Shown here piece by piece: positions 50,475 through 56,474 of a stretch of DNA of 64,000 nt; within the stretch, counting starts at the first letter, position 1; every line of letters begins with the position of its first letter. The translations under genes were made by a program, and so were the position numbers. Source of the stretch: Mycolicibacterium goodii. GTDB lineage: Bacteria > Actinomycetota > Actinomycetes > Mycobacteriales > Mycobacteriaceae. The notes beneath the pieces are model-generated. The model ran no database searches and was not told the DNA's origin. It saw nothing but the letters and a program-made list of their open reading frames with translations. The stretch is taken from the NCBI RefSeq assembly GCF_022370755.2, contig NZ_CP092364.2, positions 2,790,001 to 2,854,000 on the forward strand. The letters are read 5' to 3'.

Positions 50475-50533
50475 TTGACAGTGACACGCACCACGGAGCA
50501 GTATAGCCCGAACGTTCGGCCCGAACGTTCGGG
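50475..50533 (+). promoter_or_regulatory. Promoter and tandem LacI operators of the nitrilase operon
   Basis: TTGACA (50475-50480) is a perfect -35 box; a -10-like CAGTAT lies at 50499-50504. Directly downstream, the 13-base unit CCCGAACGTTCGG occurs twice in tandem (50507-50519, 50520-50532), each holding the perfect palindrome CCGAACGTTCGG, the second extending to 14-16 bp. Placement over the expected transcription start fits repression by the divergent LacI protein. Confidence 0.88.
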
Positions 50534-50597
50534 CAAAAGCGGGCCGGGCGTGTTCGTCACCGCTCACAAATCCATCCCAAGCCGAAAAGGATCCGTT

Positions 50598-51497
50598 ATG
50601 CCTGATCAAAACGCACACCGGTTCAGCCCTGCCCGCGTGGCCGTCGTGCAGTTCAACCCGCAGGTCGGAGTCGAGAATCTGAAGGCCAACTCCGAGGCGG
50701 TCTACGAGCGCCTGCAACGGGCGGTAGCTGAGGGCGCCAACCTCATCGTGCTGCCCGAGCTCGCGACGACGGGGTACACGTTCGAATCCCGCGAGGAGGC
50801 CTACGCGCACGCCGAGCCGGTGCCCGCAGGTGCGACCATCACCGGCTGGGCCGAGTTCGCGGCGGCCCACGACGTGTACATCGTCGGCTGCCTGCCCGAA
50901 CTCGACGGCGTCGAACTGTTCGACACGGCGGTCCTGGTGGGCCCGGACGGCTACATCGGCAAGTACCGCAAGACGCACCTGTGGAACGAGGAGAAGCTGT
51001 TCTTCTCCCCCGGCGATCTGGGCTACCCGGTGTTCCACACCCGCCTCGGCCGCATCGGCCTGTTGGTCTGCTGGGACATCTGGTTCCCCGAGACCGCGCG
51101 CATCGTCGCCCAGCAGGGCGCCGACATCATCTGCATCCCGACGGGCTGGGTGTGGACCCCGCCACCGCTGTACGACGACAGCGGCACCTGCATGGCCGCG
51201 TACCTGACGATGACGGCCGCTCACGTCAACAACGTCTTCATCGCCACCGCCGACCGGATCGGCACCGAACGCACCTCGGGTTTCATGGGCAATTCGCTCA
51301 TCGCGGGCACCAACGGCTGGCCGATCGGCCGCATCGCGGGCCCGGACGAGGACACCATCCTCTACGCCGACATCGACATCACCGCCTCACGTGGCGCGCC
51401 CATCTGGAACCAGTTCAACGATCTGCACCGCGACCGGCGCACCGATCTCTACGACCAGCTCCTCGGGTACCGCGGCGGCCAGGCCCTCCCCAGGTAG
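50598..51497 (+). CDS. Carbon-nitrogen hydrolase (nitrilase superfamily amidase)
   Basis: A 299-residue nitrilase-fold hydrolase. Catalytic triad Glu54 (LPELATTGY), Lys125 (GKYRKTHLW) and Cys158 (LLVCWDIWFPE) is complete. Members hydrolyse amides, carbamoyl groups or nitriles. Closest types are aliphatic amidase and N-carbamoyl hydrolase branches; I cannot choose. AAAAGGA gives a good ribosome-binding site 6 bases before ATG 50598. First gene of the LacI-controlled operon, 9 bases before the permease. Confidence 0.9.
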   Translation: MPDQNAHRFSPARVAVVQFNPQVGVENLKANSEAVYERLQRAVAEGANLIVLPELATTGYTFESREEAYAHAEPVPAGATITGWAEFAAAHDVYIVGCLPELDGVELFDTAVLVGPDGYIGKYRKTHLWNEEKLFFSPGDLGYPVFHTRLGRIGLLVCWDIWFPETARIVAQQGADIICIPTGWVWTPPPLYDDSGTCMAAYLTMTAAHVNNVFIATADRIGTERTSGFMGNSLIAGTNGWPIGRIAGPDEDTILYADIDITASRGAPIWNQFNDLHRDRRTDLYDQLLGYRGGQALPR

Positions 51498-51506
51498 GCA
51501 CGCGTC

Positions 51507-53980: not shown

Positions 53981-55614
53981 CCGTCGATTACACACCGATA
54001 CTGCCGCTCGGGCCCGACACCACCGAATACCGCCGACTCGACATCCCCGGGATCCGCACAGTGCGTGCCGCGGGCCGGGAGTTCCTCGACGTCGACCCCG
54101 CGGCCATCGAGCAACTGGCGTTCGAGGCATACCGCGACGTGTCACATCTGTTGCGCACCAGCCACCTTCGCCAGGTTGCGGCGATCCTCCAGGACTCGGA
54201 GGCATCTCCCAACGACCGCTATGTCGCCACCGAACTCTTGCGCAACGCGAATGTGGCGTCCGGTGGTGTGTTCCCGATGTGCCAGGACACCGGCACCGCG
54301 ATTGTCCACGGTTGGCGGGGGCAGCACGTCCTCACCGACGGCCGCGATGCCGAGCGCCTGTCCCTCGGTATCGCCCGCGCGTACCGGACGCTGAACCTGC
54401 GCTACTCGCAACTCGCGCCCATGTCGATGTTCGACGAGCGCAACACGGGCACCAACCTGCCTGCACAGATCGAGATCCTCGCCGAGGGTGACGACGACTA
54501 CCGGTTCCTGTTCATGGCGAAAGGCTGTGGCAGCGCGAACAAGAGCTTCCTGTTCCAGGAGACTCCCGCCCTACTGACGGCCGATGCGCTGTTCGACTTC
54601 GTCGTGTCCAAGGCCGCCGAGATCGGGACATCCGCTTGCCCTCCCTACCATCTGGCGGTCGTGATCGGCGGCACGAGCGCCGAATTCGCGCTCAAGACCG
54701 CCAAACTGGCCTCCGCCCGCCACCTCGATGCGCTGCCCGTCACCGGGTCGAGAACCGGCAACGGCTTTCGGGACTTGGACTTCGAGCACAAGATCCTCAG
54801 GGCGACACAGCAACTGGGAATCGGAGCGCAGTTCGGCGGCAAGTACTTCTGCCACGACGTGCGGGTGATCCGCCTGCCCCGGCATGCCGGGTCACTGCCC
54901 GTCGCCATGGCGGTGTCGTGCGCCGCCGACCGTCACATCCTGGGCCGGATCACCCGAGATGGGGTGTTCCTCGAACAACTCGAAACCGATCCGGCACGGT
55001 TCCTGCCCGATGACGCCGATTCCGGTCGCGGTGACGAAGAGATCCGGATCGACCTGGATGTGTCCATGGCGCACACCCTGGCCCAGCTGTCGGCCCACCC
55101 CGTCGGCACCAGGGTGTCGCTCACCGGCACCCTCGTCGTGGCACGCGATCTGGCACACGCCAAGATCCGTGAACGCCTCGACGCGGGCGAACCGCTGCCG
55201 GACTACCTGCGCCGTCACCCGGTTTTCTACGCGGGGCCCGCCAAGACACCGTCCGGCCACGTATCGGGCTCACTGGGTCCCACCACGGCCGGGCGTATGG
55301 ATTCGTACGTCGAGCGGTTCCAGTCCGCCGGCGGATCACTGGTGATGCTCGCGAAAGGCAACCGCTCAGACTCGGTGCGGCGTTCCTGCCAGGCCCACGG
55401 CGGCTTCTATCTCGGTTCCATCGGCGGTCCGGCGGCGCGACTCGCCCGTGACTGCATCACCTCGGTCGAGACCCTCGAATACGGCGAGCTCGGCATGGAG
55501 GCCGTGCTGCGGGTCAGGGTCCGGGACTTCCCCGCCTTCATCGTCATCGACGACAAGGGCAACGACTTCTACCGTTATCCACCACTACTCGCGATTGGAG
55601 CAGCACCGCAGTGA
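53977..55614 (+). CDS. Class I (iron-sulfur) fumarate hydratase-type enzyme
   Basis: A 545-residue two-domain class I hydratase. Probable [4Fe-4S] ligands: Cys102 in PMCQDTGTA, Cys in AKGCGSANKS, and Cys in TSACPPYH. The C-terminal beta domain contains GPTTAGRMDSYV. Members hydrate fumarate, mesaconate or tartrate-related acids. Mycobacteria normally carry class II FumC for the TCA cycle, so this operon copy is likely catabolic. ATGA overlap before, GTGA overlap after. Confidence 0.93.
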   Translation: MTVDYTPILPLGPDTTEYRRLDIPGIRTVRAAGREFLDVDPAAIEQLAFEAYRDVSHLLRTSHLRQVAAILQDSEASPNDRYVATELLRNANVASGGVFPMCQDTGTAIVHGWRGQHVLTDGRDAERLSLGIARAYRTLNLRYSQLAPMSMFDERNTGTNLPAQIEILAEGDDDYRFLFMAKGCGSANKSFLFQETPALLTADALFDFVVSKAAEIGTSACPPYHLAVVIGGTSAEFALKTAKLASARHLDALPVTGSRTGNGFRDLDFEHKILRATQQLGIGAQFGGKYFCHDVRVIRLPRHAGSLPVAMAVSCAADRHILGRITRDGVFLEQLETDPARFLPDDADSGRGDEEIRIDLDVSMAHTLAQLSAHPVGTRVSLTGTLVVARDLAHAKIRERLDAGEPLPDYLRRHPVFYAGPAKTPSGHVSGSLGPTTAGRMDSYVERFQSAGGSLVMLAKGNRSDSVRRSCQAHGGFYLGSIGGPAARLARDCITSVETLEYGELGMEAVLRVRVRDFPAFIVIDDKGNDFYRYPPLLAIGAAPQ

Positions 55615-56429
55615 TTCTCAGGCACGCAGAGCCACTTCACCTCCGCCTGGAGACCGCGGACACGCGATTGAGCGCCGAGGTGCGGCCGGGCGACGGTATC
55701 CCCGTGGTGATCGTGCCCGGCATCATGGCCGACGCCGCGACCTGGCGGCCGGTGGTGTCGCACATCGACCTGCCGAACCCCGTCGTCACCCTCAACCGCC
55801 GTGGTCGCGCGTCGAGCGGTGGACTGGGGGCGGAGTACTCGGTCGCCGTCGAGGTCGACGACCTGCACCAGGTCGTCGGCGCCCTCGGAGCCGTGCACCT
55901 CGTCGGCTGGAGCTACGGGGCACTCATCGGACTCGAGGCCGCACTCGGTTCCGAGCGGATCCGGTCGGTCACGGCGTACGAACCCGTCAGCCGGCCCTTC
56001 GCGCCCGAGGCCGTCGCACCCATCCGGGCGGCTGTCGCCGCCGGTGATCTCGATCGTGCGGTCGCCCTGGTCAACACCGACGTATCCGGATTCTCCGACG
56101 ACTATGTGGCCCATCTCCGTCGCAGCCCCGCCTGGGCTGTGCTGCGACCGCTCGCGCAGCCGATGGGCGAGGAACTCGCCGCGATCGACGCATTCGAGCC
56201 GTCGCTGGACGGCTACTGTCGCCTGATGGTCCCGGTCACTCTCATCCTGGGCGCACGCAACGAGGGGAAGGCGCCTTACGGAACGGCTTTCGCCCCGTTC
56301 GCGAGTGCGTTGCCGCAGGCACGGTTGACCCGACTGACCGGGCAGGGACATCTGGCCCACGTCGAGGCGCCGGCCGACCTGGCCGAGGCCATCTCCGCGG
56401 CCGTCCGGCACGCCGAGACCGTCGGTTAG
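55611..56429 (+). CDS. Alpha/beta hydrolase
   Basis: A 272-residue alpha/beta hydrolase. Oxyanion segment VVIVPGIMADAATW, nucleophile elbow GWSYGALIG, and a C-terminal GQGHLAHVEAP with the catalytic His. Resembles small esterases and C-C hydrolases. GTG start overlapping the fumarase stop by 4 bases; last gene of the operon, followed by a 12-bp hairpin. May open an ester or thioester of the operon's substrate. Confidence 0.88.
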   Translation: MILRHAEPLHLRLETADTRLSAEVRPGDGIPVVIVPGIMADAATWRPVVSHIDLPNPVVTLNRRGRASSGGLGAEYSVAVEVDDLHQVVGALGAVHLVGWSYGALIGLEAALGSERIRSVTAYEPVSRPFAPEAVAPIRAAVAAGDLDRAVALVNTDVSGFSDDYVAHLRRSPAWAVLRPLAQPMGEELAAIDAFEPSLDGYCRLMVPVTLILGARNEGKAPYGTAFAPFASALPQARLTRLTGQGHLAHVEAPADLAEAISAAVRHAETVG

Positions 56430-56438
56430 AGACCGGGT

Positions 56439-56474
56439 GCGCCGGTGCCGCGGTTTCGGGTACGGCACCGGCGC
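56439..56474 (+). terminator. Terminator of the nitrilase-amidase operon
   Basis: GCGCCGGTGCCG (56439-56450) pairs perfectly with 56463-56474, loop 12 bases, 9 bases after the operon's last stop codon. Confidence 0.8.

Follow-up and report, generated by a model that had tools for sequence, protein, structure and literature searches.

Several described systems resemble in part a small operon that we studied in a 64,000-nucleotide stretch of the Mycolicibacterium goodii genome (contig NZ_CP092364.2, positions 2,790,001 to 2,854,000; hereafter the window). Urea transporters (UT/SLC14, PF03253) carry urea-sized solutes. The lower nicotinate pathway (NicD, NicF, NicE) shares with the operon an alpha/beta hydrolase, an amidase, and the theme of a C4 unsaturated half-amide, whereas the operon has no visible isomerase, adds a channel and a nitrilase, and encodes a hydrolase with a weak match to 4l0c. 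In Pseudomonas, AmiE-AmiS joins an amide hydrolase and its regulator with a protein for the permeation of small amides. Our locus does the same, but differs in its channel fold (AmiS has another one), in having a second amidohydrolase and a hydratase, and in its control by LacI. The same likenesses and differences apply to fmdCABDEF of Methylophilus (PMC10781810). FumA, FumB, and FumD are class I fumarases or mesaconases (PMC4682846).

The operon and its control region have the following features, given with their coordinates in the window:

49396-50430, minus strand: LacI-family repressor (Peripla_BP_3, 5e-31; reading frame open to 50487)
50475-50480, plus strand: -35 element TTGACA (from the sequence)
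50508-50519, no strand: predicted LacI operator 1, CCGAACGTTCGG (palindrome, conservation)
50521-50532, no strand: predicted LacI operator 2 (palindrome, conservation; 13 nt from operator 1)
50598-51497, plus strand: nitrilase-superfamily amidase (CN hydrolase; PF00795, 1.5e-47)
51507-52640, plus strand: channel (permease) of predicted urea-transporter fold, unnamed family
52637-53980, plus strand: amidase-signature amidohydrolase (PF01425, 3.5e-95)
53977-55614, plus strand: class I (Fe-S) fumarase with Cys184 (PF05681/PF05683; 5l2r; residue comparison)
55611-56429, plus strand: alpha/beta hydrolase (PF12697, 4e-14)
56439-56474, plus strand: 12-bp hairpin, possible terminator without a T run (from the sequence)
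56537-56572, no strand: 16-bp perfect hairpin separating two convergent genes, which probably share it as terminator (from the sequence)

We propose, with a probability of about 0.55, that this is a LacI-repressed operon for scavenging nitrogen and carbon, with channel uptake of a small amide, two deamidations, and hydration of a C4 acid by the fumarase. The channel would admit an amide that is small and neutral, with a C4 dicarboxamide as the likeliest candidate. The nitrilase-type amidase would take off one amide nitrogen and the amidase-signature enzyme the second, from the half-amide. Hydration of the resulting unsaturated C4 acid by the class I fumarase would then yield a malate-type acid (oxaloacetate if the C4 acid is acetylenic). 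An effector would release LacI from the two tandem operators, which lie just downstream of the -10 element, over the likely start site. In this scheme we infer the direction of transport, the amide substrate, the order of the steps, and the C4 chain. The initial annotation, made from the sequence alone, had proposed a similar pathway. Its five genes with 9- or 4-base junctions are borne out by the coordinates of the open reading frames (ORFs): the nitrilase-permease gap is 9 nt and the three later junctions are 4-nt overlaps. The -35 box, the two tandem perfect palindromes, and the divergent LacI gene are all present in the sequence. The operon, its linkage, and its enzyme families held up, while the substrate, the order of deamidations, the action of the fumarase on the amidase product, and any role of the last hydrolase are putative.

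The linkage is conserved. Scanning a single genome for each species gave 270 permease relatives, of which the best 80 were analyzed as loci; the sample is ranked by similarity and hence not an unbiased census. Gene order was counted within 6.5 kb around the permease, which leaves the amidases of L036 and L050 outside, and the identity thresholds drop weaker relatives, e.g., the amidase near L092. A plasmid match (H6) was left out of the loci, and L097 has no annotation. The nitrilase lies directly upstream of the permease, on the same strand, in 77 of the 80 loci. Distances between nitrilases follow those between permeases (r 0.94 for 72 members; among these, 0.92 for the 45 from gammaproteobacteria and 0.83 for the remaining 27), and none of these correlations was reached in 2000 permutations (0/2000). 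The comparison thus defines a recurrent nitrilase-channel pair, found side by side across many distantly related bacteria. It is also the co-occurrence search that the initial annotation had suggested, and the linkage it returned includes the full LacI set in nine loci.

Around this pair, four architectures prevail: AraC-FAD monooxygenase-nitrilase-permease-asparaginase (30/80, in Pseudomonas; FAD, flavin adenine dinucleotide), HxlR-nitrilase-permease-amidase-tautomerase (15/80, including L025, a Mycolicibacterium metagenome-assembled genome), LacI-nitrilase-permease-amidase-fumarase-hydrolase (9/80, all mycobacteria), and monooxygenase-nitrilase-permease (7/80). The remaining 19 loci form smaller groups, among them Rhodococcus jostii and Nocardia with a fumarase. 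The amidase occurs in 32 loci and the asparaginase in 34, never both. We favor a diamide because a second amidohydrolase stands within 6.5 kb of the pair in 66/80 loci and this role is filled by two unrelated families. A C4 half-amide is favored because asparaginase takes the place of the amidase elsewhere and because a fumarase closes the mycobacterial pathway set.

By sequence, the permease matches nothing in Pfam, NCBIfam, or the PDB. It does not match PF03253, and the whole-genome search with this profile was likewise empty, the same search being positive in 9 of 20 other genomes. Its predicted structure is the urea-transporter fold over about 300 residues, composed of two related halves, as shown by a second match in the structural comparison. 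The repeated [Q/E]xxF motif of urea transporters is present once per repeat (E51/F54 and E234/F237, conserved), and hhalign aligned one segment, in which E51 stands opposite their S[Q/E]V motif; these residues would be pore motifs if the roles we assume for urea transporter residues apply. Unlike urea transporters, to which its identity is 11-16%, the channel has nitrilase and not urease as its partner in the 80 loci. This predicted fold is most naturally read as serving the import of an amide that is small and neutral, which is probably admitted by this urea-channel-like protein of an unnamed family. The model strengthens the small-amide import suggested by the initial annotation and offers a structure-based function for a membrane protein family that falls outside the Pfam urea transporters by sequence.

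The family is patchy. One search (7996 candidates scored) gave 344 matches at E 1e-3 in actinobacteria and proteobacteria. Within the genus, 14 of 198 genomes matched, and within the phylum 6 of 396 (query genomes included), as did 3 of 398 in the phylum of G201 (query included), one of them weakly (E 6.2e-5). The M. goodii genome has a second, 42% identical copy (G000 C1:3864056-3865153; L101 7910-9175), adjoining ORFs that by eye resemble an alpha/beta hydrolase and a flavin disulfide reductase; no relative of the operon's amidases was found beside it. In L129 (G590, 962-8187), a relative lies immediately ahead of ureA in a urease operon, with genes for ATPases of ATP-binding cassette (ABC) transporters 3-4 kb upstream. 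On large plasmids of Prescottella and Rhodococcus (L095 and L096), permease relatives directly follow an amidase gene, and in L095 an AmiS/UreI gene lies only a few genes from there.

Several observations weigh against the proposed pathway. No Foldseek match of the permease model passes E 0.001, and profile-profile comparison with the Pfam urea transporters is not significant (E 0.28, 0.23), so that proof of shared ancestry by this route failed and the urea-transporter link rests on predicted fold, motif, and neighborhood. Several distant permease homologues have no adjoining relative of the operon's amidases, and in Pseudomonas the FAD enzyme may be an intracellular source of the amide. The substrate is one that we infer, and MSMEG_2983-2988, the likely M. 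smegmatis genes of the operon, are unnamed in the main texts of PMC3662644 and PMC4222082. Furthermore, the fumarase and the last hydrolase each occur in just 11/80 loci, and in 14/80 no second amidohydrolase was found within 6.5 kb, seven of these being monooxygenase-nitrilase-permease loci. Because of these last counts, the substrate might also be a mono-amide. The core pair would then handle an acetamide-type or N-carbamoyl-type (ureido) compound, with amidase and fumarase processing another part of the molecule or simply supplying central metabolism with nitrogen and carbon, a reading to which we give a modest chance. It would suit the urea-sized solutes of urea transporters, the homologue in the urease operon, and the resemblance of the nitrilase to N-carbamoylputrescine amidases (159 bits; 5h8i among its PDB relatives). 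However, this score is far under the cut-off of 410, and the 66 loci with a second amidohydrolase point to two amide groups.

The proposed two-step deamidation relies on enzymes with clear family matches, in agreement with the families first assigned: two unrelated amidohydrolases and a class I fumarase. The best PDB relatives of the nitrilase are 3ivz ("Nitrilase"), 1j31 (PH0642), 6ypa, and 7ovg, presumably archaeal, and it falls below the cut-off of every NCBIfam model it matched. The amidase is closest to biuret hydrolase (6c62) in the PDB and scores 345 bits against AtzE, under the cut-off of 461. We rejected the use of biuret or N-carbamoylputrescine on these missed cut-offs. A nitrile pathway, suggested by the name of the nearest PDB entry, is less favored since a urea-type channel fits amides better. 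The last hydrolase is nearest to an unnamed hydrolase (3r0v, 1.8e-13), followed at about 1e-6 by "Deformylase" 4l0c and RutD (3v48); the match to 4l0c (104 residues) is too weak for an N-formylmaleamate deformylase. Our guess is that this enzyme opens amides supplied in N-acyl or ester form.

In Pseudomonas, the pair is associated with other genes. A FAD amine oxidase precedes it in 41/80 loci, e.g., at 6737-8683 of L027, the sole representative searched, where the nearest PDB relative is tryptophan 2-monooxygenase. The diamide might derive from glutamine or asparagine: an enzyme like amino acid 2-monooxygenase would make succinamide or malonamide inside Pseudomonas cells, nitrilase and asparaginase (34/80 loci) would finish the degradation, and mycobacteria would import the diamide and drain the C4 acid with the fumarase. 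The nitrilases of Pseudomonas and the window operon are 61-67% identical. In addition, MSMEG_2985, a class I fumarase, is 4.02-fold up in a table of a study of glutamine-and-rifampicin persisters (PMC6062616). That it is the orthologue of the window fumarase is suggested by its name and by a position close to urtA (MSMEG_2982); as a link to operon function, the increase is suggestive only. But the FAD enzyme has no NCBIfam match at 1e-10 and may be an oxidase, and succinate needs no dedicated fumarase. We consider this route unlikely.

The window fumarase matches fumarate hydratase 5l2r at 1.7e-193 and is the only match in the genome in a class I fumarase search. Aligned with 5l2r and 12 operon sequences, it keeps the Fe-S cysteines and the substrate-binding residues of this class, as in FumA, FumB, and FumD. 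It differs from these by Cys184, next to a glycine that presumably binds the substrate. The window fumarase, all 11 locus orthologues, and the 50 database proteins nearest to it have a cysteine here; these 50 partly overlap the orthologues and were compared by sequence, independently of operon context. Among the next 70, 68 have a glycine instead. Of the two that do not, P0199 comes from a contig as long (12834) as that of a permease homologue (P0033), perhaps the same one. This difference between operon-type fumarases and their next relatives suggests a specialized enzyme, perhaps one whose substrate is not plain fumarate. Only 11 loci have the fumarase (R. jostii, Nocardia, and the Mycobacterium loci of LacI type), so that the hydration giving a malate-type acid would be a final step of these lineages and not part of the core. 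The hydration step put forward in the initial annotation therefore has an enzyme with intact residues, but a narrow distribution.

In other lineages, a tautomerase occurs in 16/80 loci, the same 16 that have an HxlR regulator. Its model belongs to the tautomerase superfamily, with Pt0534 and cis-CaaD as top Foldseek matches and Cg10062 from rank 27. The residues of cis-CaaD are Pro-1, His-28, Arg-70, Arg-73, Tyr-103, and Glu-114 (PMC5818174); by simple numbering, with no structural alignment, the invariant proline and two arginines fall on positions 1, 70, and 73, and the other three disagree. An acetylenic diamide such as cellocidin could be detoxified or used, two deamidations giving acetylenedicarboxylate, which the fumarase here and the cis-CaaD-like tautomerase elsewhere would turn into oxaloacetate. 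Hydration of acetylenedicarboxylate by E. coli FumA is described in PMC4682846. Even so, this reading is quite improbable. Its widest form, a new urea-transporter-fold channel family for planar diamides, in operons that assimilate a cellocidin-type C4 diamide to oxaloacetate through two unrelated hydratases, is a long shot.

Control by LacI, as claimed in the initial annotation for a single operon, gained support from the operators. The regulator scores 25.6 bits for the LacI helix-turn-helix, just below the 27-bit cut-off, and its orthologues are 44-86% identical to it; AAAGG ahead of a GTG at 50430 and the orthologue alignment make this its likely start. The TTGACA is retained in all nine LacI-type mycobacterial loci, L021, and L023. 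By eye, the conserved GGAGCAGTATAG includes CAGTAT (50499-50504), 18 nt downstream of the -35 element; a promoter scan returned no full sigma-70 promoter. GCCCGAACGTTCG is repeated at 50506-50518 and 50519-50531, and both palindromes are nested in a single 29-nt perfect palindrome. With up to two mismatches, the window has four operator matches (two sites on both strands) against a mean of 0.56 in shuffled windows, four being reached in 0 of 100 shuffles; the tandem site is far above chance expectation. Exact CCGAACGTTCGG occurs three times in the 6.74 Mb genome, twice as the operon operators and once within an ORF. The tandem operator is intact directly after the TTGACA promoter in the window, the nine mycobacterial loci, R. 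jostii, and Nocardia. All 12 regulators of these loci have alanine at a variable helix-turn-helix position, and all 12 face CGAACGTTCG sites. Opposite the nine clustered serine regulators, CGAACGTTCG is never found (0/9): seven have CAAACGTTTG, one (L094) has CAAACGATTG, and L054 has degenerate sites only; the regulator of L092 is absent from the clustered set and excluded from these counts. The pattern extends to Pseudomonas, where the LacI beside the pair is 44-46% identical. The residue co-varies with the operator bases, as in a predicted cognate regulator-operator pair, although the 12 and 9 cases are not independent events because the sequences are related. Together with a few candidate substrates, this system makes the proposed amide pathway directly testable in a laboratory strain.

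The initial annotation placed the terminator at 56439-56474. The hairpin exists (12-bp perfect stem, 12-nt loop) but has no T run, and the hairpin at 56537-56572, in the stretch that separates the operon from a convergent gene, is an equal or better candidate. A terminator scan requiring a T run reported neither, and an Rfam scan of 49300-57300 had no match. The G+C content (0.686 in the operon, 0.678 in the window) gives no sign of recent foreign origin. A literature search, judged by titles and the starts of abstracts, found no paper on this gene set or a matching pathway, in line with the earlier remark that no described mycobacterial pathway with these genes was known to its author.

Downstream, a small, apparently secreted protein (56604-57065, minus strand) is encoded convergently with the operon, and beyond it lies urtA of the urea ABC transporter (57201-58541, plus strand). 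urtA is also downstream in five of the nine LacI-type mycobacterial loci, 0.8-4.3 kb past the last operon gene. In M. smegmatis, the urt genes are GlnR-induced (PMC3662644) and raised in nitrogen starvation (PMC4222082). Given the silence of both main texts on MSMEG_2983-2988, we do not claim GlnR control of the operon. On the other side, a radical SAM protein gene (48312-49481, minus strand) adjoins the LacI gene and is apparently unrelated to the operon.
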